Assembly: GCA_002354555.1 (NCBI GenBank)
Contig: DELT01000055.1
Coordinates: 1 to 52,818 of the forward strand
Direction: 5' to 3'
From: Methylophaga sp. UBA2689
GTDB lineage: Bacteria > Pseudomonadota > Gammaproteobacteria > Nitrosococcales > Methylophagaceae
DNA: 52,818 nucleotides
Under the pieces are notes generated by a model. The model ran no database searches, had not been told where the DNA came from, and saw nothing but the letters and a program-made list of their open reading frames with translations. Position numbers and translations under genes: made by a program. Shown here one piece after another: positions 2,276 to 52,818 of the stretch; positions within the stretch are counted from its first letter, which is position 1; the number at the start of each line of letters is the position of its first letter.

Positions 2276-2526
2276 TAATGTAACGTTTCAAGCGATTATT
2301 CTAGAGTTTTATTTTAGTAAGCCGCTTTTATTGTATTGGCTAAACACCTAAAAAATTTAGAGGTGATTGTAAAAATTACATGACTTCGTCATTGGCTGTA
2401 CATGAAAAATTCATAAGAGAATTTGATTATAAAGTTAATGTGTTTTGTGTTAATTCTATTTCAACATACTGATTTTAAATAGTAATTATTTTAGTTTTTC
2501 CGTGTATTTTATAGTAATAATTATTT

Positions 2527-2542
2527 TGGCATGAGGCTTGCG
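2527..2542 (+). promoter_or_regulatory. Sigma-54 (RpoN) promoter
   Basis: TGGCATGAGGCTTGCG has GG at 2528-2529 and GC at 2540-2541 in exact -24/-12 spacing. Transcription would start near 2553, about 80 bases before the ATG at 2632. Confidence 0.75.
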
Positions 2543-2631
2543 ACATTGTTTAATACAAGGAAAGCATTCGGCTCTTTCTTTGATTTAATACTTGAATACA
2601 AAAATTGCCGTTAAATAAAAAGGAGAATGAA

Positions 2632-2952
2632 ATGTTTAAGCAACTATTTCTTTCAACTGCAATTGCTACAGCTTTTGCTGTTACACCTGTCTTAGCAGAT
2701 GATCATGAAAAAATGAATAAAGATGATCCTGAGTGGGAACAAAAAGTTAATAAAACCAAACACGACATGGACAAAGATCACAAGAACAAAGATCATAAGG
2801 ATAAAAGCAGTCAGGATGGTAAAACTGTGACCTATGACGAAATGGATGAAGACATGGACGTGGTGCCTGACAAAGAGGCCTATGATAAGAGTAAGAATGG
2901 AAACGATAAGCACCCAGCGCATAAAATGGGCGAGGAAGGATATCCTCAATAA
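2632..2952 (+). CDS. Small periplasmic Asp/Lys-rich protein
   Basis: A 106-residue hypothetical protein. The signal peptide (MFKQLFLSTAIATAFAVTPVLA) is cleaved before DDHEK. The mature part is extremely charged, with repeated K-x-K-D-H and D-K-D-H units around residues 42-62, and has no hydrophobic core, so it is probably disordered and may bind cations or metals. The start is ATG 2632 because AGGAG lies at 2621-2625; an upstream TTG at 2605 in the same frame has no ribosome site and would spoil the signal peptide. It is driven by the sigma-54 promoter at 2527. No family recognised. Confidence 0.8.
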   Translation: MFKQLFLSTAIATAFAVTPVLADDHEKMNKDDPEWEQKVNKTKHDMDKDHKNKDHKDKSSQDGKTVTYDEMDEDMDVVPDKEAYDKSKNGNDKHPAHKMGEEGYPQ

Positions 2953-2993
2953 AGTAACTTGAGCGCTAAATAAAATTCTAAGTTCAATGGGAG

Positions 2994-3076
2994 CGTAGCG
3001 TTTTTAATGGAGTAAGTAGCTGGTTGATTTCTCAGTGTTGACCAACTAATTTACTATGGAAGTAACGCTACGTTTT
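2994..3076 (+). terminator. Long imperfect hairpin, possible terminator
   Basis: CGTAGCGTT (2994-3002) pairs with AACGCTACG (3064-3072). Inside the loop, further interrupted complementarity (AGTAAGTAG..TGGTT against ACCAACTA..TTACT) extends the stem to an approximately 80-base structure, which is followed by TTTTCATTTTTTT. It could be a terminator for the gene ending at 2952 or a short palindromic mobile element. Confidence 0.5.
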
Positions 3077-3217
3077 CATTTTTTTATCAAGCTAATTTTT
3101 CACCTAAGCACTTCATTTTTAGCAAATGAAATGTTAAATCCTTAAGACATTTAACTTCATATTCTTATTTAACATAAGCCTTAATGCTTTCTTTAGCATT
3201 TTGGATAGGAGTTTAAA

Positions 3218-3517
3218 ATGGCTACACAACTCATTAAAATGACGATTTTTGCCAGCATGATTACGAGTCTGCCTTTATTGGCAGATGAAATGAATGATGT
3301 AAACGAGATAGAAAATCCTGTTACTCATAGTAATAATATTTCAAGTGACAAATCTAGCCGGGGTACTGTGACACAAGGAGTAATAGGAGCTGAAGCAGAT
3401 GAAAACAAGAAGCTGGTTCCAGAATCATCCCCCGCTGCGACGGAAAAGGATACTGATCCCAATATCCGTCTGAAAGATGAGATCACTGAAGATATTGAAA
3501 CATTTGAAGCGGAATAA
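3218..3517 (+). CDS. Small exported hypothetical protein
   Basis: A 99-residue protein with a signal peptide (about residues 1-22, ending SLPLLA before DEMND) and a short, Ser/Glu/Asp-rich, probably disordered mature part without Cys. A TAGGAG ribosome site stands 8 bases before the ATG. No family recognised. Its look resembles the neighbouring small exported acidic proteins at 2632 and 5903, but no -24/-12 promoter is visible upstream. Confidence 0.7.
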   Translation: MATQLIKMTIFASMITSLPLLADEMNDVNEIENPVTHSNNISSDKSSRGTVTQGVIGAEADENKKLVPESSPAATEKDTDPNIRLKDEITEDIETFEAE

Positions 3518-3529
3518 TGATTTAGGGCT

Positions 3530-3640
3530 TGTTTATCTTTCATATCCACCACTGCTGGCGGCTATTTTGTGTCCGACAAGGCGGAAAGCACGCCGTGTAG
3601 TCTTCCTACATAAGTGATTTACAACCCAGGCGGCCAATAA
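3530..3640. repeat. GC-rich intergenic block, possible dispersed repeat
   Basis: In the AT-rich gap between convergent genes lies a block of about 110 bases that is clearly richer in GC, with GGCGG, GCGG and CCGCC-type motifs. It includes the tract TGTCCGACAAGGCGGAAAGC near 3570. It has no reading frame. Its composition and compactness resemble dispersed intergenic elements, but it occurs only once in this window, so this is a weak call. Confidence 0.25.
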
Positions 3641-3646
3641 TTTATT

Positions 3647-4105
3647 TTATAACTGTTTAAGTGTCTGACAGGCATTATGTCCCTCACTTAGTAAAATGAT
3701 GTTTTTGTGTATACAAGCATCGTTCCAGCCATTTACATTATCCGGAGCGGCTCGTTTGGAAAAAAATTCCAAGTCTACGGCCACTGTATCGGTAAATTGA
3801 TACAGTTCAATTCGTTCACTCTTCCATTGGCCAACCCAACCACCTTCAGCATTTTCAATCAAGGTTTGGCGTTGATACTGCTTTTCAAACCCGGCCGCTT
3901 CAACATCTGCAATCTGGATTAACTGATCATTAAACGAGATTTTATAGAGTAGCATCAGGCCTAGTAAAAGTGCCGCAAAACATAGGGTATTAATAAAATG
4001 ATCTGTGGTGGTTAAACCGGGATTTTTGATATGGCATTGGACACAATTATTGGCTGTTCGTGCTACCTGATATTCACAGTTTCGACATTTAACCAGTTTT
4101 GCCAT
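3647..4105 (-). CDS. Zinc-ribbon membrane protein of unknown function
   Basis: A 152-residue protein. The N-terminus carries a zinc ribbon with two CxxC knuckles (CRNC at 7-10 and CVQC at 21-24), followed by one transmembrane helix (about residues 38-56, FINTLCFAALLLGLMLLYKI). The C-terminal half is soluble and contains two further Cys. An AGGGAA ribosome site precedes ATG 4105. It is the last gene of an apparent minus-strand operon with 4148 and 4540, with gaps of 30-45 bases. Zinc binding is inferred from the motif; no specific function is known. Confidence 0.7.
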   Translation of the reverse strand: MAKLVKCRNCEYQVARTANNCVQCHIKNPGLTTTDHFINTLCFAALLLGLMLLYKISFNDQLIQIADVEAAGFEKQYQRQTLIENAEGGWVGQWKSERIELYQFTDTVAVDLEFFSKRAAPDNVNGWNDACIHKNIILLSEGHNACQTLKQL

Positions 4106-4147
4106 TGTAAATTCCCTTTTTTATATTGTTGGTCAGAACAGGAAAGG

Positions 4148-4504
4148 TCAGCTGGCAAGCTTGCGATAGTTATCTAAAATCCAATGCACTCTTTCACAGG
4201 CTTGAATGTAATCCACGATCATCGAAACAGGGGGGGATTGGATGCCCTCGATACTCATACGGGTATATTCAAGGCTGTGGATTAGACTTCCCAGTCGGGG
4301 ATCCAAAACTGTGATTTCACCAATATTAAGCCTGCCCTGTTTAATTAAATCATTGTTTGGCTTGTCTGAAGATGCAGATAAATAATTGATTTCCTTTTCT
4401 AAAACATCCCAGGCTTTACGCATGGAATAAATGGGGAACACTGTGGCTTCTTTTTTCAGTGACATCCATTCCTTCTCTGCTTTCTTTGCATGATTGTTAT
4501 TCAT
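4148..4504 (-). CDS. Hypothetical cytosolic protein
   Basis: A protein of about 118 residues without signal peptide or membrane segment and with a predicted mostly helical composition. A TTG (4519), an ATG (4510) and an ATG (4504) are in frame. GGGA at about 4514-4517 is spaced best for the ATG at 4504, giving MNNNHAKKAEKEW, so that start is chosen with reserve. The gene lies 35 bases after the hemerythrin gene and 42 before the zinc-ribbon gene on the same strand, so co-transcription is likely. No family recognised. Confidence 0.65.
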   Translation of the reverse strand: MNNNHAKKAEKEWMSLKKEATVFPIYSMRKAWDVLEKEINYLSASSDKPNNDLIKQGRLNIGEITVLDPRLGSLIHSLEYTRMSIEGIQSPPVSMIVDYIQACERVHWILDNYRKLAS

Positions 4505-4539
4505 AATCATTATTCCCAAATGGGTTTATAAGGCTTGGC

Positions 4540-5004
4540 CTAGGTTTTACTAAGCTGTTGTTTACGTTCTGTAATTTTTTCACCTAGTAATGCAAGATCC
4601 ACACTGCTGTCTTGCATTAAAGGAAACATTTCGTCTTCTTCTTCCTTAACATGATGTTCGATGTACTCAGAGAGCACTTTTACTTTGGCATCAAACAATT
4701 CTTCATCGGCCTGCATTTGCTGAATTTGCTTGATTAACATCTTGGCACTGTCGTGTTCAACCTGTGCTTCATCGACCAGATCTTTTGCATCAGCAAGTTT
4801 TTCACGAAAAGCAGGGTAGATAATTTCTTCTTCTAATTGGGTATGCAGTGTAAGTTCTGCACAAATTTCATCTGCCAGTTTTTTCTTATGAACAAACGCA
4901 TATGGCCCGAGCTCTTCGTATTGGGCAAACGCCTGTTTAACTTTCTGATGATCTTTTTTCAATAAGCTTATGGCGTTGTTCTGTGTCTCTTTTGCATCAG
5001 TCAT
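4540..5004 (-). CDS. Hemerythrin HHE cation-binding domain protein
   Basis: A 154-residue four-helix bundle of the HHE hemerythrin family, which binds a di-iron centre for O2, NO or iron handling. The ligands can be placed: His19 (KKDHQK), His54 and Glu58 (LHTQLEEEIIYP), His84 (EHD), and His117/118 with a following acidic run (HHVKEEEDEMFP). The C-terminal half is close to HHE proteins of Proteobacteria in length. It is the first gene of the minus-strand group 5004-3647. It lies divergent from the DUF2383 ferritin-like gene at 5385 across a 380-base region, suggesting a shared iron or stress theme. Confidence 0.88.
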   Translation of the reverse strand: MTDAKETQNNAISLLKKDHQKVKQAFAQYEELGPYAFVHKKKLADEICAELTLHTQLEEEIIYPAFREKLADAKDLVDEAQVEHDSAKMLIKQIQQMQADEELFDAKVKVLSEYIEHHVKEEEDEMFPLMQDSSVDLALLGEKITERKQQLSKT

Positions 5005-5384
5005 GTTTTAAAACCTTTCGATTTATGGAAGTAAGTATCAGTCCTTTTGCAAATTATGTACCTGAGATAAATAAATCTTTGCCACAGCTTGGTGCGCTTG
5101 AATATAGCGGTGAGTTTTATAAGGGTTATGTGAATAAAAGAAAATAAAATATGGGTAAAAATTACTGGCAGTTACAGAAAAAATTATAGGGATAAAACTG
5201 AATTTACTCTACGAGTCCAAGACTGAAGTTTCCCTAACCTCATTAAGGCTTACTTTCGATGTCTGGCATAAGGCTTGCTGACAGTGATTAACATGCACTT
5301 CTCAAGTGTGAGTTAAATCAGGTAGGAATTTCCAAAGTTTGTATTGAACGATAAGTTAAATGTAATGCTGAAAGGAAAAACATA
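5005..5384. other. Divergent intergenic region (hemerythrin / DUF2383)
   Basis: No gene. It holds the sigma-54 promoter at 5264 reading rightward. I see no matching -24/-12 element for the leftward hemerythrin gene. An AAGG site (5377) serves the gene at 5385. Confidence 0.5.
5264..5279 (+). promoter_or_regulatory. Sigma-54 (RpoN) promoter
   Basis: TGGCATAAGGCTTGCT is an excellent -24/-12 match including the final T; GG 5265-5266 and GC 5277-5278 are spaced exactly. Transcription would start near 5290, about 95 bases before ATG 5385. Confidence 0.8.
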
Positions 5385-46927: not shown

Positions 46928-47458
46928 TCAACGAATTCGTAAACTAGTCAACATTATCGATTCACCAACACCCCAATCACTTGAAATGATGCCTTTCTCA
47001 ATAAACCGATGAATGCTGGAATAAGGCCAATCAAACGCCTTATCGACATAACCATGCTTCACCGGATTGTAATGAATGTAATCAACATGGCGTTCATAAT
47101 CCAACTCATCACGAATTAAATGCTCCCAATAACGGCGTTGCCATATTCCACGTTCAGATTTTTGTTTTCGTGAATTATTGATTCGTTCGGTAGAGGGAAG
47201 ACCACGAGAAAAATGGGATTTGATTAATCGCCAGCGAGTGGCGAAATCAAAGTCATTTTCAGGTAAAGTCCAGATAACATGAAGATGATCAGGCAACACC
47301 ACGATGGCATCAATATCAAAAGGGTGGGTGGATTTAACTCTACGAAAAGCGGTTTTAAGCAGATCAATATGATCAGTAAGCAGTGATTTATCTCGTTCCA
47401 GCAGATTGACCGTAAAGAAATACGTACCACCAGCAACAAAAGCCCGTCGATATTGCAT
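46928..47458 (-). CDS. REP-associated tyrosine transposase (RAYT, Y1/HUH)
   Basis: A 176-residue Y1 HUH transposase. It starts MQYRRAFVAGGTYFFTVNLL, which is typical of RAYTs. The metal-binding HUH motif is H58-L-H60 (LPDHLHVIWTLP). IWQRRYWEHLIRDELDYERH leads to the catalytic Tyr in VDYIHYNPVKHG (Tyr127), and the C-terminus has the family's WPYSSIHRFI. RAYTs mobilise REP palindromes; matching REPs flank it (46173-46206 and 47495-47583) and occur at four more places. The gene looks intact. Confidence 0.93.
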   Translation of the reverse strand: MQYRRAFVAGGTYFFTVNLLERDKSLLTDHIDLLKTAFRRVKSTHPFDIDAIVVLPDHLHVIWTLPENDFDFATRWRLIKSHFSRGLPSTERINNSRKQKSERGIWQRRYWEHLIRDELDYERHVDYIHYNPVKHGYVDKAFDWPYSSIHRFIEKGIISSDWGVGESIMLTSLRIR

Positions 47459-47494
47459 CAATCACCATCCATGTGATTAAAAAAATAAATAAAT

Positions 47495-47610: not shown

Positions 47611-48615
47611 TCAACTGCTCTCAATAGTCTCAACAATCCCCTCAAGCAATTGCTCCAGGTCACCAAAATGTCCATCACTGCGGGCGGGAAGGGTAGGGTC
47701 AGAGGTAATAACAATGGATAATTTCAGCTCTGGAACAATCACCAGCATCTGCCCACCATACCCCCGTGCATAGACTGCTTTCTGACCTGTATATTCAGTC
47801 AGGAACCAACCATAGCCGTATAAATCATTTGAAAAGGGTGATAAGCCACGAGGCTCCCAAGACGTTTCAATCCAATTTTGGCTGACCACTTCCTGACCAT
47901 TAATTGTTCCACCATTCAAAACCATATCGCCAATCCTGGCCAGACCAAGTGGACTCATAGCCATCTGATTACCACCCATATACCGCCCTTGTGGATCAGT
48001 GGTCCAGGGTGGAATAACAATATCAAGCGGATTCCCCAACCAGTCTTGTGCCAGATGATGCAAGCTGTGTCCGGAGGCTTTTGTGAGCGCTGCACCAAGG
48101 ATATGCCAACCACCTGTGGAATAAATAAAACGGCCTCCAACCCGATCCACTAATGGTTGATTCAGAGCATAGTCCACCCAATTGTTGCTGTTGACCCATG
48201 CCCCATAATTCTTGCCGGATGTGCTAGCCAGCCCGGTCTGCATGGTTAACAAATGTTTGATAGTCAGTTTGTCACGAGCATCACCGAAAGCGGATTTCCC
48301 CAACAAAGGTAATACACGCTGATCAGTTCCCTCAATAATGCCACGGTCTATAGCGATACCCGTCAAGAGAGCCACAATGGTCTTTGAAACAGACTTGATA
48401 TTAACCGGCGCATCCAAAGCCGGACCACGAAAGGCATTAGCGAATAACTGCTCACCATTTTGATGTATGACCAGGGATTGCAGCTGATCAAGTCGTTTCG
48501 CCTCATCTGCGATCGGTTCAAAATCAGGTTTTGCCTGAGCTGCACCATTCGTCAGGGCCATCGTTAATATTGCTGTGCTGGTGATTAAGATCTTTTGCAG
48601 GGATATTTTTGGCAC
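47611..48615 (-). CDS. Serine hydrolase, beta-lactamase/transpeptidase-like
   Basis: A 334-residue exported protein with a GTG start (weak ribosome site) and signal peptide ending at about residue 28 (GAAQA before KPDF). The active-site motif is SVSK (Ser75-Lys78 approximately). The second motif position has YST in RFIYSTGGWHIL, in place of YxN, and the C-terminal third motif is RGYGGQ. It matches the class C beta-lactamase-like (EstB or alkaline-peptidase) esterase family rather than a true beta-lactamase. Periplasmic; substrate unknown. Confidence 0.88.
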   Translation of the reverse strand: MPKISLQKILITSTAILTMALTNGAAQAKPDFEPIADEAKRLDQLQSLVIHQNGEQLFANAFRGPALDAPVNIKSVSKTIVALLTGIAIDRGIIEGTDQRVLPLLGKSAFGDARDKLTIKHLLTMQTGLASTSGKNYGAWVNSNNWVDYALNQPLVDRVGGRFIYSTGGWHILGAALTKASGHSLHHLAQDWLGNPLDIVIPPWTTDPQGRYMGGNQMAMSPLGLARIGDMVLNGGTINGQEVVSQNWIETSWEPRGLSPFSNDLYGYGWFLTEYTGQKAVYARGYGGQMLVIVPELKLSIVITSDPTLPARSDGHFGDLEQLLEGIVETIESS

Positions 48616-48937
48616 GAGTAAATACTATCTCATTTGATAAAAATCAATTCTTAAGTAGGACTACTCAGTAATCTAATAATTTAGTTCAATTCAAAAAAAA
48701 AATGATTAACAAAAGTATCATCCCAATCAGCTTAGGGCGATATAACGCTTTAATTACAATCCATGTGAAAAAATCATTGTAGGTTGGGCTGAGTTTATGA
48801 AGCCCAACAAGCGATTTTTGATTTTAGTTTATGATGAGATTTTATGTAATGTTTGAACATGATGGGCTTCGTGCCTCAGCCCAACCTACGGGTTACATTG
48901 CTTTGAAAAGTTGGGTTTAACGTAAACAATTAAAACA
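48616..48937. other. Intergenic region with a REP element
   Basis: About 320 bases with no gene; contains the REP element at 48779-48889 and otherwise only AT-rich sequence. Confidence 0.45.
48779..48889. repeat. REP element of the GTAGGTTGGG family (GGGCTGA type)
   Basis: GTAGGTTGGGCTGAGTTTAT with inner AAGCCCAAC, and the right half GATGGGCTTCGTGCCTCAGC ending CCAACCTAC. Preceded by CCATGTGAA. It shares its arm type with 31219, not with the other copies. Confidence 0.9.
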
Positions 48938-49711
48938 TTAGTTTATTGCTTTTATCGTTCGACATTTTGGGAATGTTGAACATCCCCAGAATTGTTTACC
49001 TTTATTCTCACCTTTTTTCGTTTCTCTCAATATCATCGTAGATCCACATTTAGAGCAATATTGTTGGCTTTCCTTATCAACAATAATAGTTTGCACATGC
49101 TGAGTATGTTCACGATGGGTTTTAAAAGATCGTTCTAATCGACCAGATTCAATTGATTGAGTGATTTCAACAACTTGACTCGGAGATAACACCGGGTCGG
49201 TTTTAGAAAGAATGTAACGAATATAGCCCATTCCATAGGTCACATTTTCTGGCACATCGGTTTTAAAAGTACTGTTACCAATAAAAATCACTACCGAATG
49301 CAGTTGATGTTCATCAAGATTCAAAAGTGCTTGTAACGTTTTGGTATGTTTATAATTTTGGTGCAGAGGGTTTTGAAATTTAGTTTTGTGTTTATATATT
49401 TGTTGTGTCCAGGTTTTTTGTTTAGCTGAACCAAAAATCCAACCTCTTAAATTTTTGGTTTCAACGACAAATACACCATAAGCTGACACGATGATGTGAT
49501 CGATTTGCGTGGTGCCATCCTCAGTTGGCAGGGTGACGTTTTTAATAAGATGATATTCCGATTTATCCAGTTTCCACTTTGCAAAAGTATTGATGATTAA
49601 CTCACCAAAAATACCTTTAAACCAAGCTGACTTAATCACTGTTGCAAAGATAAAAATTGGTATTAAATACCATAATGAAAACAAAGCCTGATAGATTGGT
49701 GAAAAGTCCAT
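48938..49711 (-). CDS. NERD-domain protein with C-terminal topoisomerase-type zinc finger
   Basis: A 257-residue protein. A hydrophobic N-terminal helix (about 10-25) anchors it to the membrane. The NERD nuclease-like domain has the expected motifs: FGELIINTF (Glu), TQIDHIIVSAYGVFVVETKN (Asp and Glu-x-Lys) and GWIFGS. The C-terminal zinc finger (CSKCGSTMIL .. WGCSTFPKC) is of the topoisomerase type. NERD proteins are thought to act on DNA, often near defence genes; no catalysis is proven. The gene is complete and lies between REP elements, same strand as the TIR-DnaB set. Confidence 0.88.
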   Translation of the reverse strand: MDFSPIYQALFSLWYLIPIFIFATVIKSAWFKGIFGELIINTFAKWKLDKSEYHLIKNVTLPTEDGTTQIDHIIVSAYGVFVVETKNLRGWIFGSAKQKTWTQQIYKHKTKFQNPLHQNYKHTKTLQALLNLDEHQLHSVVIFIGNSTFKTDVPENVTYGMGYIRYILSKTDPVLSPSQVVEITQSIESGRLERSFKTHREHTQHVQTIIVDKESQQYCSKCGSTMILRETKKGENKGKQFWGCSTFPKCRTIKAIN

Positions 49712-49832: not shown

Positions 49833-49977
49833 GCAATAAAAGCACGTCGATATTGCATCAATCACCATCCATGTGATTATAAATAAATGTAGGTTGGGTA
49901 GAGCTTGCGAAACCCAACGATTCGATATTGTTATGTCATTTATAAAATGTTGGGTTTCATTCTTCAACCCAACCTTC
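49833..49977. repeat. Duplicated RAYT 5' end plus REP element
   Basis: Bases from 49833 repeat those from 47433 with a constant 2400-base offset for the first stretch. The copy includes the first codons of the RAYT gene (GCACGTCGATATTGCATCAA), the CCATGTGATTA box, and the REP palindrome (49889-49977). Only a few mismatches and a short deletion are seen. It is a partial second copy of the transposase-REP junction without the transposase body. Confidence 0.85.
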
Positions 49978-50610
49978 GAGGCTAAGCTTATATTCAATTG
50001 ATTCATTCAAAAATAATATTTGCAACTCAAGACTATTAGATAGTTTTTGTATTAAAAATACACCTAAATACATTCCTACAATTAATGCAATAAGAATGTT
50101 AGAAAAGTTAGGAGAGATTTTTTCAGAAAATTGAAATGAGGCAAGAAATATTGCAATGAAAGCAGGGAAAAGACCAACCTTTTTGATACTTCCCACTAAG
50201 AAAGATGTTCTATTTTGTAGTTGTTGAAGGTCCGTTTCCATTCCTTTCTTAACTGCTTTGAGAGCATGAACGCTAAATTTATTTAATTTACTTATATATT
50301 CTTCTTTTTGTTTCATACGAATGTTAAACAATTCAAAATACTCATTTAATGGCATAAAAAATGAGCGTCTGATTGAAACGGAGCTAAGCAAAATAAAAAT
50401 AACCGATGAAAAAAGAAATACTAATAAAGCTAAGAGAGATAATGTTTTATTGAAATCAATGATCAGCAATACGGCGGCTATAATCCCACTGAACATTGTA
50501 GTCTTGGTAAAAAACTCTTCTTTTTTTTCTTGTTTAAATATATTGTTGAACCTATATAGTTTTTCACTACTGGATATGAATTTTATAAGTTCATTTACTT
50601 CCTGGTCCAT
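49957..50610 (-). CDS. Hypothetical membrane protein ending in a REP element
   Basis: A 217-residue protein. Two transmembrane helices occur early (about 40-58 and 60-80), a helical and partly coiled middle (about 90-140) follows, and two more lie at about 145-160 and 172-190. The last codons, including the stop, lie in the REP element (49889-49977), so the natural C-terminus may have been replaced. It is AT-rich, like the next two genes on the strand. A 2TM + helix layout is reminiscent of effectors in defence loci (inference). No family recognised. Confidence 0.65.
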   Translation of the reverse strand: MDQEVNELIKFISSSEKLYRFNNIFKQEKKEEFFTKTTMFSGIIAAVLLIIDFNKTLSLLALLVFLFSSVIFILLSSVSIRRSFFMPLNEYFELFNIRMKQKEEYISKLNKFSVHALKAVKKGMETDLQQLQNRTSFLVGSIKKVGLFPAFIAIFLASFQFSEKISPNFSNILIALIVGMYLGVFLIQKLSNSLELQILFLNESIEYKLSLEGWVEE

Positions 50611-50703: not shown

Positions 50704-51006
50704 TTAAAACATATCAATGTAAGTGCTTTTAGGGGAAGGCCAGTTTTGAGCGATAACGGTATAAAGTGCTTCAATCCATGCTTCATCGCTAGCTGCGTAT
50801 TGCCCTACATAATTATTTCCAGCACAGAGCGTTTCCAGTCTAAAAGAGATGTTTTCGATATTTATATTTCCAACCTCATCAGAAAGATATAATTCACCCA
50901 ATTGAGTAACCCTCAATTGACGATGTTGAGAATCATCTTTGCTAGCTATGAGTTTGGCAAGATTCTTTTTGTTGAAATCCTCTGGTTTATTTAAATTAAT
51001 TTTCAT
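50704..51006 (-). CDS. Small hypothetical protein downstream of TIR-DnaB
   Basis: A 100-residue soluble protein with GAGGA 6 bases before the ATG. It has motifs such as LRVTQLGELYLSDEVGNINIENISFRLETLC (about 32-62, shown in part) and a WPSPKSTYIDMF end. Its start is 18 bases after the TIR-DnaB stop on the same strand, so it is probably in one operon. No family recognised; it could be an accessory or inhibitor of the fusion protein. Confidence 0.7.
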   Translation of the reverse strand: MKINLNKPEDFNKKNLAKLIASKDDSQHRQLRVTQLGELYLSDEVGNINIENISFRLETLCAGNNYVGQYAASDEAWIEALYTVIAQNWPSPKSTYIDMF

Positions 51007-51024: not shown

Positions 51025-52374
51025 TTATGATTTAATTTGGTCTGAAAAGGTAGAATATTTTTTTTGGTACATCAACTTGATAGTACCGGTGTGACCATTG
51101 TTATTTTTGGCTATGATAATTTCTGCATTAGCGTTATCTGTGAAATCATAGTCTTCGTAGACTTCTCCTCTATATATGAAACCAATTATGTCAGCACAGT
51201 TTGTTAGGTTTTCGAATTCGGAAAGGTCATTCAAATGAGGACGCTTATTTGGTCTCTTTTCAACCGATCTAGGTAGAGATACGGTTAAAATTATTGGCAA
51301 TTGAACTTCCATCGCTAGGTGTTTAAGTTTATGTGCATATTCAGAATATGAAAGCTCAATATTCAGTGATTTTTCTCGGTAGGCTAAGTCTTGTAATGAA
51401 TCAATTATCACCGCTTTAAGGTTGTGTTTTTGTTTGAACTTTACCAGCTTAAGGCGAAGCTCATCCACAGAGGATAAGATGCTTTCATCTATAAATAGTG
51501 GAGCTTCATTTAGCAGTGCAATTACTGATACCAATCTAGGCCAATCATCATCTTGTAGATTTCCTCTGAGTAGATCTTTACTATCAATTCTTCCGACTAG
51601 AGACATTAATCTCCTTGTAGTATGTTCTACAGGTGTGTTCATCGAAAAATAAGCTACGGCTTCTTTTTCATGAATAGCTATATTCGCAGCAATATTCAGA
51701 GATAGTGCTGTTTTACCCATTGTAGGTCTAGATGCTAGTACTATTAACTCTGCAGGGTGAAGGCCGTCAATAATATAATCTAGATCTGAGATCCCAGTTG
51801 ATAGGCCGCTACAATTGCCCGAGTCCGCTTTTTCAAAAACTGTATCAATACGATCAATTTCTCTTGACAGAACATCCCGCATGCTTAGTAAACCTGCACC
51901 TTCACCAACTCTGTTTTTAAATTTTTTTATTTCGGTGATAGTTTTCTTTATTCCTTCAATAACGTTAAGGCAAGCGTCATCCTCGTTGTTCCATTTTGTT
52001 ATTGGGAGGCCATCTGTTGGAAGACCTTGAATTTTCGCAAATGATGTTTCATGCCAATCACAAGGTCTTAGTATTATTGGCAGAACCACAGATAAATTTG
52101 AATCATGTCTTTCTAAAGCTATGGATAATTCATTTTCATAACAATAATTGGAAGCAATAAAGTCTGAACTAACAAGTAAAAGAACTAAATCAGCAGTCCT
52201 TATTTTATCGTCGATTTCTTTTTGCCAATCTTTGCCGGGCACAATTGCTCTATCGTTCCACTCATCAATTAGCTTTTGTCTTTTCAAAGTTGCTAAGTGA
52301 TTAAGCAGCTTATTTTTGAGCTCCTCGTCTTTATGAGAGTAACTACAAAAAACAGAGACAGCGTATTCATTCAT
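51025..52374 (-). CDS. TIR domain-DnaB-like (RecA-fold) fusion protein
   Basis: A 449-residue protein from ATG 52374 (AAGGA 6 bases upstream). Residues 1-150 form a TIR domain: VSVFCSYSHKDEELK, DWQKEIDDKIRTADLVLLLVSS, and the putative catalytic Glu82 in NYCYENELSIALERH, then VVLPIILRPCDW. Residues 185-445 match the DnaB helicase C-terminal domain: TGISDLDYIIDGLHPAEL, Walker A RPTMGKT (216-222), IIDSLQDLAY (Walker B Asp325), DLSEFENLTNCADIIGFIYR and IIIAKNNNGHTGTIKL. The DnaB-typical LE in FSLEMP is MN (Asn246), and KQRNG is KNNNG (Asn425 for the Arg finger). DnaB's N-terminal domain is absent. TIR domains cleave or signal with NAD+; a defence role is inference. Confidence 0.9.
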   Translation of the reverse strand: MNEYAVSVFCSYSHKDEELKNKLLNHLATLKRQKLIDEWNDRAIVPGKDWQKEIDDKIRTADLVLLLVSSDFIASNYCYENELSIALERHDSNLSVVLPIILRPCDWHETSFAKIQGLPTDGLPITKWNNEDDACLNVIEGIKKTITEIKKFKNRVGEGAGLLSMRDVLSREIDRIDTVFEKADSGNCSGLSTGISDLDYIIDGLHPAELIVLASRPTMGKTALSLNIAANIAIHEKEAVAYFSMNTPVEHTTRRLMSLVGRIDSKDLLRGNLQDDDWPRLVSVIALLNEAPLFIDESILSSVDELRLKLVKFKQKHNLKAVIIDSLQDLAYREKSLNIELSYSEYAHKLKHLAMEVQLPIILTVSLPRSVEKRPNKRPHLNDLSEFENLTNCADIIGFIYRGEVYEDYDFTDNANAEIIIAKNNNGHTGTIKLMYQKKYSTFSDQIKS

Positions 52375-52390
52375 AAGCAATCCTTGGCGA

Positions 52391-52419
52391 ATAAAAAAAG
52401 CCGACATAAAGTCGGCTTT
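52391..52419 (-). terminator. Intrinsic terminator in the leader of the TIR-DnaB gene
   Basis: AAAGCCGAC (52411-52419 read leftward) / GTCGGCTTT (52397-52405 read leftward) forms a 9-bp stem with a 5-base loop. The minus strand then continues into a run of seven T. It ends 16 bases before the ATG at 52374, with only the ribosome site in between. It must therefore lie inside the mRNA leader or mark an element boundary. Confidence 0.85.
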
Positions 52420-52496: not shown

Positions 52497-52502
52497 TATA
52501 AT
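52497..52502 (+). promoter_or_regulatory. Possible -10 box (TATAAT)
   Basis: A perfect TATAAT on the plus strand lies just before the twin repeats at 52511. A -35 partner is poor (TTAGAG, 16 bases upstream). No supported plus-strand gene follows within the window. Confidence 0.35.
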
Positions 52503-52510
52503 GATGTTAT

Positions 52511-52570
52511 GCAACCATAAGTTGCAAAAAAAGGGAGGATTACAACCATAAGTTGCAAAGTTGGGAGGAA
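52511..52570. repeat. Tandem palindromic repeats (operator- or iteron-like)
   Basis: Two copies of CAACCATAAGTTGCAAA (starting 52512 and 52543) are spaced 31 bases, about three helical turns. Each contains GCAAC/GTTGC half sites and is followed by GGGAGGA. Such spaced, palindromic repeats look like binding sites of an XRE-type or antitoxin repressor. Confidence 0.6.
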
Positions 52571-52818
52571 TTGATTTAACTTATTGTTTTTATTGTTTTT
52601 TTACGTGCGTTGCGTAAGTGTTTTTATGTGTTTATTATTAACGATACCAGCAGTGACATACTGTGTAAACAGGCAATTAAGTTATTTAATACCGGATATG
52701 GGTTTTAAACCCACATATATTATTAAGGTGTTGAATTACAATACATTATTGCAACATAAAGACATGCTAGGTAAGAGAAGTGCCTCAAATTGGCGATGAC
52801 CTGCCCCCAACATCTAGT

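Follow-up and report, generated by a model that had tools for sequence, protein, structure and literature searches.

What is the function of a protein in which a TIR domain stands in the place of the N-terminal domain of a DnaB helicase? The question is posed by a gene near one end of the window, by which is meant the whole stretch of DNA analysed here, one complete contig (G000:C104, 52,818 bases) in the draft assembly (2.9 Mb) of a marine methylotroph; 444 bases separate the start codon from the end of the contig. The first-pass annotation had proposed that a TIR_2-like domain with a Glu82 motif is followed by a DnaB-like RecA core that seems to have lost catalytic residues and may bind ATP without acting as a helicase. 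The gene, its parts and the features adjoining it are as follows.

51025..52374, minus strand: TIR-DnaB fusion gene, 449 amino acids (ORF scan, Pfam, homologue L010)
51937..52374, minus strand: TIR domain, residues 1-146 (profiles and full-length model)
52129..52131, minus strand: Glu82, the catalytic-type glutamate of the TIR domain (TIR alignment)
51820..51882, minus strand: DnaB linker helix, residues 165-185 (model, structural match and sequence)
51028..51810, minus strand: DnaB-type RecA core, residues 189-449 (Pfam, NCBIfam and fold match)
51709..51732, minus strand: Walker A, SRPTMGKT, residues 215-222, kept (alignment)
51637..51639, minus strand: Asn246, replacing the catalytic glutamate (E. 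coli E262; alignment)
51484..51552, minus strand: retained segment, residues 275-297 (E. coli about 291-313), the loader-contact and hexamerisation-pocket helix
51400..51402, minus strand: Asp325 of Walker B, kept (alignment)
51277..51279, minus strand: Ser366, replacing the glutamine of motif H3 (alignment)
51211..51222, minus strand: Ser385-Glu386-Phe387-Glu388, replacing the ssDNA-contact loop RESG (E. coli R403/E404/G406)
51100..51102, minus strand: Asn425, replacing the arginine finger (E. coli R442; alignment)
52398..52418, minus strand: terminator-type hairpin, 23 bp before the fusion start codon
50704..51006, minus strand: 100-aa ORF, 18 bp downstream of the fusion

The ORF around the fusion extends from 51025 to 52407 (minus strand), and the alternative start at 52407, which gives a 460-aa ORF, is less likely. 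The start at 52374, already chosen in the first-pass annotation, is favoured because the homologue L010:1728-3071 begins at the equivalent place, and an AAGGA is seen by eye upstream of it. The hairpin at 52398..52418 was not listed by a consensus terminator scan. The 100-aa ORF at 50704..51006 is possibly co-transcribed with the fusion and was not matched in any of the 62 further genomes searched in the order. The two domains are separated by a hinge (residues 158-163) that is poorly predicted in the full-length model; the structural match to DnaB begins at residue 161, and residues 165-185 resemble the linker helix of the family DnaBs in sequence.

The amino-terminal part is matched by TIR_2 (PF13676; E 2.6e-16, 60.6 bits against a cut-off of 28), by PF01582 (35 bits against 21.3) and by the PADLOC model of ThsB-type TIRs (PDLC00420; E 3e-52), the last over residues 7-153 of the 449-aa protein (18-164 of the 460-aa ORF). 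Glu82 is invariant in 10 of 10 aligned TIRs, that of the window among them, and aligns with the glutamate of the WC..E motif in Cat1 and Roq1, which we take to be catalytic. TIR chains in the PDB are matched by the TIR profile, the best sequence match being Cat1 (E 2.9e-10). The TIR fold rests on these profiles and on the full-length model (m1040fd32da7a; pLDDT 91, pTM 0.64), in which the position of one domain relative to the other is not reliable; the fold search covered the DnaB part only. From these matches the TIR part would be an NADase or cyclase. The same TIR type is present in 18 of 369 genomes of the class at E 1e-10, G000 counted, and ten such proteins were scanned for partner domains: a STAND NTPase, an AAA_22 and a CHAT domain were found once each, and the other seven have no further Pfam domain at E 1e-4. 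This variety fits a TIR effector with exchangeable regulators.

The remainder of the protein is DnaB-like. DnaB_C (PF03796) is matched at E 2.1e-69 with the whole model covered, and the fold search recovers the full DnaB fold in the modelled DnaB part, whereas the NCBIfam DnaB equivalog TIGR00665 scores 255 bits, below its cut-off of 385.25. The domain arrangement given at first pass is thereby confirmed. The fusion shares its RecA core with the DnaB helicases of the Methylophagaceae (PF03796) but has the TIR domain where they have the N-terminal domain, which is absent, and it lacks their catalytic glutamate, H3 glutamine, arginine finger and two residues of the ssDNA loop. All of these differences recur in a second fusion, L010, described below. 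The catalytic glutamate is lost with FSMNT and FSINS against FS(L/M)EM (in the window FSMEM has become FSMNT, and asparagine stands in both), and the arginine finger with KNN against KQR; these losses, as well as the preservation of Walker A and the Walker B aspartate, had been recognised in the earlier reading and are upheld by the alignment of both fusions. Two further changes were not part of it: the H3 glutamine is lost (VSLPR against (S)QLNR), and the ssDNA loop is altered (DLSEF(E/D) against DLRESG) with the loss of two of its three ssDNA contacts, the equivalents of R403 and G406, that of E404 being kept. The Walker A lysine, the Walker B aspartate and the trans lysine (Lys423 in the window, E. 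coli K440) are kept in both. Roles for E262, K440, R442 and R403/E404/G406 of E. coli DnaB are given in the parts of PMC6391071 that deal with these residues.

These residues are otherwise conserved. The comparison set comprised 29 DnaBs of the family, 29 of the class, two of another family, four of phages and six whole plasmid DnaBs, together with one plasmid DnaB in two pieces and two pieces of host dnaB. The catalytic glutamate, H3 glutamine and finger arginine are kept in every row covering the position, and the ssDNA-loop arginine is a lysine in one of the two other-family DnaBs. Of the 65 viral DnaBs examined from the best 80 of 584 loci, all keep the glutamate, glutamine and finger arginine, and 64 keep the loop arginine; as these loci were found partly through Walker A or the ESG loop, only the other positions give a fair test.

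A separate dnaB is present in G000, in two parts on contigs C18 and C6 (the contig ends share a 23-base overlap), and it carries all of the residues lost in the fusion; 55 of 57 Methylophagaceae genomes have a DnaB match. The residue losses together with this gene rule out a normal replicative helicase. A still active helicase or ssDNA translocase, carrying its TIR domain at replication forks, could appeal to the kept Walker A, Walker B and trans lysine and to the full DnaB fold of the model, but we regard it as highly improbable given the loss in both fusions of catalytic glutamate, H3 glutamine, arginine finger and the loop arginine and glycine, and given the normal dnaB elsewhere in the genome. 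Nucleotide binding by the DnaB part is possible, and ATP hydrolysis with translocation is very unlikely. Judged by its motor-residue losses, by purifying selection on both domains and by the separate replicative dnaB, the fusion is a TIR pseudo-helicase and not the replicative helicase of the cell. What was observed at first pass is correct, and somewhat more strongly so than first stated; the earlier proposal is plausible and in part supported. Its non-helicase half is supported by the residues lost, and its ATP binding stays a possibility, in keeping with the retained nucleotide-binding lysine.

The second fusion lies in a metagenome-assembled genome of the same family (Methylophaga sp. HyVt-379; L010 1728-3071, G064:C28 in the genome set) and shares 65% identity with the window fusion from end to end; it begins at the equivalent position, and its reading frame is unbroken. 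Between the two, pS is 0.758, so that synonymous sites are near saturation, pN is 0.215 and pN/pS is 0.28; by domain, pN/pS is 0.24 for the TIR and 0.29 for the DnaB part, which argues that both domains are maintained by selection. Recurrence in a second genome at this divergence and pN/pS shows the fusion to be more than chance, and an assembly chimera is ruled out by it. The first-pass annotation had named as contrary outcomes homologues acting as normal replicative helicases, or a TIR part without NADase activity and missing from related fusions; the L010 protein keeps both the TIR glutamate and the motor losses, and neither outcome was encountered. These data also bear on whether the TIR might be no enzyme at all, serving instead as a protein-interaction module, or the gene be on its way out or chimeric. 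That both host assemblies are drafts and that there are two members only would allow such an account, which we consider rather improbable in view of the invariant Glu82, the TIR pN/pS of 0.24, and the presence of this fusion in two distinct genomes, the two copies being nearly saturated at synonymous sites.

The TIR-DnaB architecture is rare, with two members known. In the order, 5 of 63 genomes have a TIR match and 2 of 63 the fusion. The TIR query found no further fusion in a class sample of 369 genomes, in which 30 of the 32 listed matches were screened for DnaB on the same ORF within loci extending some 1.5 kb to either side, or less where a contig ended. A phylum sample of 398 genomes, searched with alignment A1 at E ≤1e-62, a threshold that could miss more divergent fusions, gave 38 genomes with a match and no further fusion; all matches except that of G000 start at profile position 134 or later and are ordinary DnaB. 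The three samples overlap, and the whole-genome searches all lie within the phylum. The fusion was seen in 0 of 1222 matching plasmid records with 80% cover, in 0 of 810 phages, and in 0 of 86 loci of viral contigs (6 TIR loci and 80 DnaB loci, the latter the best 80 of 584) with both domains on one ORF; further viral-contig searches gave no fusion and one match, L014, a DnaB without TIR. Among genome contigs searched by exact short patterns, the fusion was present only in L010; L011 and L012 have the TIR alone. No description of a TIR-DnaB fusion was found in literature searches, whose scope took in few subscription papers; PMC7824862, in the portion concerned with these domains, treats TIR and DnaB separately.

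At positions that distinguish the DnaBs of the family from those of the class, the window fusion sides with the family at 18, with the class at 1 and with neither at 17; for L010 the figures are 13, 4 and 19. In trees the DnaB part sits on a long stem (2.93 and 2.11), because of which its branching place is left open (AU p 0.488 and 0.459, no decision), and family descent is read from the diagnostic positions and phmmer scores only. On these, the DnaB part is likely a copy of a Methylophagaceae dnaB that has since changed fast.

The change has not been even. The window fusion was compared with L130, a stand-in near-identical to the host DnaB, and the L010 fusion with the DnaB of its own host. 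Identity is 46% overall and 89% at E. coli positions 294-313 for the window fusion, and 39% overall and 79% over the same segment for L010. At 294-313 L130 shares only 32% identity with E. coli DnaB; at a contrasting segment, 366-385, these two are 95% identical, yet only 40% is kept in the fusion. Once conservation is corrected for, the best 20-residue stretch is 291-310 in the window fusion and 294-313 in L010, with block-permutation p values of 0.02 and 0.002 respectively (0.037 and 0.011 for uncorrected identity). The retained segment and dnaB are 66% identical in nucleotides, with 9 of 22 codons identical where the amino acid agrees, and these codon differences rule out recent gene conversion from dnaB as the cause. 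Neither the presence of the DnaB linker helix nor this one short surface helix, far better kept than the rest, had been remarked on at first pass.

According to the relevant sections of PMC6391071 and PMC4705694, this stretch of E. coli DnaB is touched by lambda P and DnaC and belongs to the pocket that receives the linker helix of the neighbouring subunit; PMC4705694, in those sections, places the pocket that cradles this helix at 264-308 and describes 295-304 as shielded by DnaC, with I297A and L304A defective. Of the 12 positions in the lambda P helix (291-302), 10 are kept in both fusions, against 122/270 and 103/270 elsewhere (p 0.015 for the window fusion, 0.004 for L010); the ranges are taken from print and eight residue sets were tested per fusion, and after eight-fold correction only the L010 fusion remains below 0.05. 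The DnaC site at 295-304 is kept at 7 of 9 positions in the window fusion (p 0.088) and 8 of 9 in L010 (p 0.003), and the DnaC site at 431-435 is not kept (2/5 and 1/5). Because one helix serves both ring assembly and loader contact, the two are inseparable by sequence alone, and more than one account of the retained segment must be weighed.

One is that the fusion is an integrated replisome decoy, a motorless copy of the host DnaB that presents the helix grasped by loaders and is linked to a TIR; a phage loader attempting to capture the helicase would set off destruction of NAD+ instead. It is weakened by the full published list of lambda P contacts, which is not enriched among kept positions (43/107 against 61/178, p 0.37; 19/29 against 33/73, p 0.08, for invariant positions only), and we think it possible but unlikely. 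The same, in our estimate, holds for a scaffold without a decoy, in which the DnaB ring is an oligomerisation platform switched by nucleotide or ssDNA, the helix serves only for docking of the linker, and the trigger is a different one. Such a scaffold is consistent with the unenriched contact list, with the position of the retained stretch, largely within the hexamerisation pocket (264-308 in the part of PMC4705694 on the pocket), and with the presence of a linker helix that agrees with the family consensus at 11 of 17 and 9 of 17 positions, though this helix is not significantly better kept (p 0.14 and 0.31). It is at odds with the rest of the pocket (264-290), which is not kept above average (10/27 and 9/27), and with the loss of the ssDNA-contact arginine and glycine. 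A third account, that the fusion enters DnaB hexamers of host or phage through linker helix and pocket and poisons or brakes replication, blocking or marking the ring with the TIR as tag or effector, would suit the family character of the DnaB part at the diagnostic positions and the 89% likeness of the pocket helix to a host-type DnaB; it is improbable, since the DnaB N-terminal domain is absent and since a protein co-made with the host helicase would, with these catalytic losses, be expected to be toxic.

The surroundings of the two genes were compared next to those of relatives. The L010 fusion lies directly behind nrdB and starts just after the nrdB terminator hairpin. The hairpin before the window fusion resembles that of L010 nrdB; nrdB itself is not upstream in the window and has no match in G000 at E 1e-60, though 31 of 33 searched genomes have one, and its absence may well reflect an assembly gap adjoining the fusion locus. 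Seven other relatives (L100, L102 and L109-L113) have other genes at the site downstream of nrdB: when 24 ORFs taken from these sites and from L010 and the window were compared by BLASTP at E 1e-3, only one pair was related, the membrane proteins of L010 and L113. Ten nrdB-site proteins were scanned for defence functions, and the only strong matches are HEC-01A (E 1.3e-152) and HEC-01B (E 4e-54), at 2480-4227 (minus strand) of L111 (G014), 1.3 kb behind nrdB. A protein at L102 9007-9798, at an nrdB-type site, has a weak AbiU2-HEPN match below cut-off. The 3' side of nrdB may be a cargo site in the Methylophagaceae; its gene content varies and includes at least one candidate defence system, which falls short of proving a defence island. 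Scans of the fusion and the next three genes of the window recognised no further complete defence system. The defence context, which the first-pass annotation proposed to look for, is therefore only suggestive, through the nrdB site of L010 and the candidate HEC-01 pair of a relative.

A number of other genes and repeats are present in these regions. A gene for a NERD domain with a topoisomerase-type zinc ribbon lies beyond the fusion, within a few kb, in both carriers (window 48938-49711, minus; L010 5270-6049, plus); at E 1e-20, 18 of the order's 63 genomes have a match to it, and in G033 and G006 too it is near nrdB. L010 also has an ADP-ribosylglycohydrolase (4194-5132, plus; PF03747, E 7.5e-29) 1.1 kb downstream of the fusion, with a possible link to ADP-ribose chemistry; none was found by Pfam among the window neighbours scanned. 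The 217-aa protein at 49957-50610 of the window (minus) has membrane stretches seen by eye, and its N-terminal part gives a weak match to the ThsA model (E 0.002), probably reflecting composition. At 47611-48615 (minus) is a serine hydrolase of the beta-lactamase-like family PF00144, and at 46928-47461 (minus) an IS200/Y1-type transposase with relatives in the nrdB regions of L110, L111 and L113 and by the NERD gene of L104. Repeats of the form GTAGGTTGGG...CCCAACCTAC are seen by eye near the transposase, at 48780-48895 and 49870-49980, an arrangement like that of REP/RAYT pairs. Two copies of a repeat, CAACCATAAGTTGCAAA, lie at 52500-52562 and 52775-52818, and the contig edge resembles the end of an IS element (both by eye); of 419 bases tested, only a stretch of about 30 was matched, in 3 of 23 other genomes.

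The fusion was also compared with known TIR systems. Its TIR matches the Thoeris ThsB model PDLC00420, and it differs from Thoeris in being a single joined protein. At L020, L032 and L023, a TIR of the same type is joined to a STAND NTPase, AAA or CHAT domain and not to DnaB. A ThsA partner (SIR2/STALD or TM-macro) was not recognised: with STALD, G000 had no match and G064 a single one under the cut-off, and a search with PDLC00413 gave no match; as the controls of both searches were matched in 0 of 14 genomes, these negatives do not show ThsA to be absent. The assembly part of Cat1 is CARF in nature; that of SpbK is its N-terminal domain, and in the fusion the corresponding part is a DnaB pseudo-helicase. 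As described in the portion of PMC12847820 on SpbK and other TIR systems, the extra domains oligomerise and unite the TIRs into an active site, and because of this a DnaB-derived ring appears well suited to TIR assembly.

Taking these observations together, we give an even chance to the fusion being a TIR pseudo-helicase, derived from DnaB, that acts as a sensor or scaffold with an immune function; its oligomerisation, NAD chemistry, trigger and antiviral role are what we infer. The DnaB part probably binds nucleotide and self-associates via linker helix and pocket, and would be unable to hydrolyse ATP efficiently or to move on DNA. In a resting state the TIRs would be apart or inhibited. A trigger, in the likeliest case one of the invader's replication proteins (a helicase loader, for instance), would then bind the DnaB part at the retained loader-contact helix; on binding, a ring would form or rearrange and bring the TIRs together, and the assembled TIRs would cleave or cyclise NAD+ and so stop the infected cell.

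A TIR effector with a regulator is of a kind already known; what would be new among TIR effectors is the regulator, a pseudo-DnaB. There are many TIR defence proteins, and what their partner domains sense is often unknown. For this fusion the trigger can be guessed and is directly testable, because the partner is a degenerate form of a known replication protein whose ligand surface has been mapped. Should the loader decoy be true, the fusion would be a bacterial counterpart of the plant immune receptors with integrated decoys, and assembly of the replication fork would itself be a monitored step in bacterial immunity.
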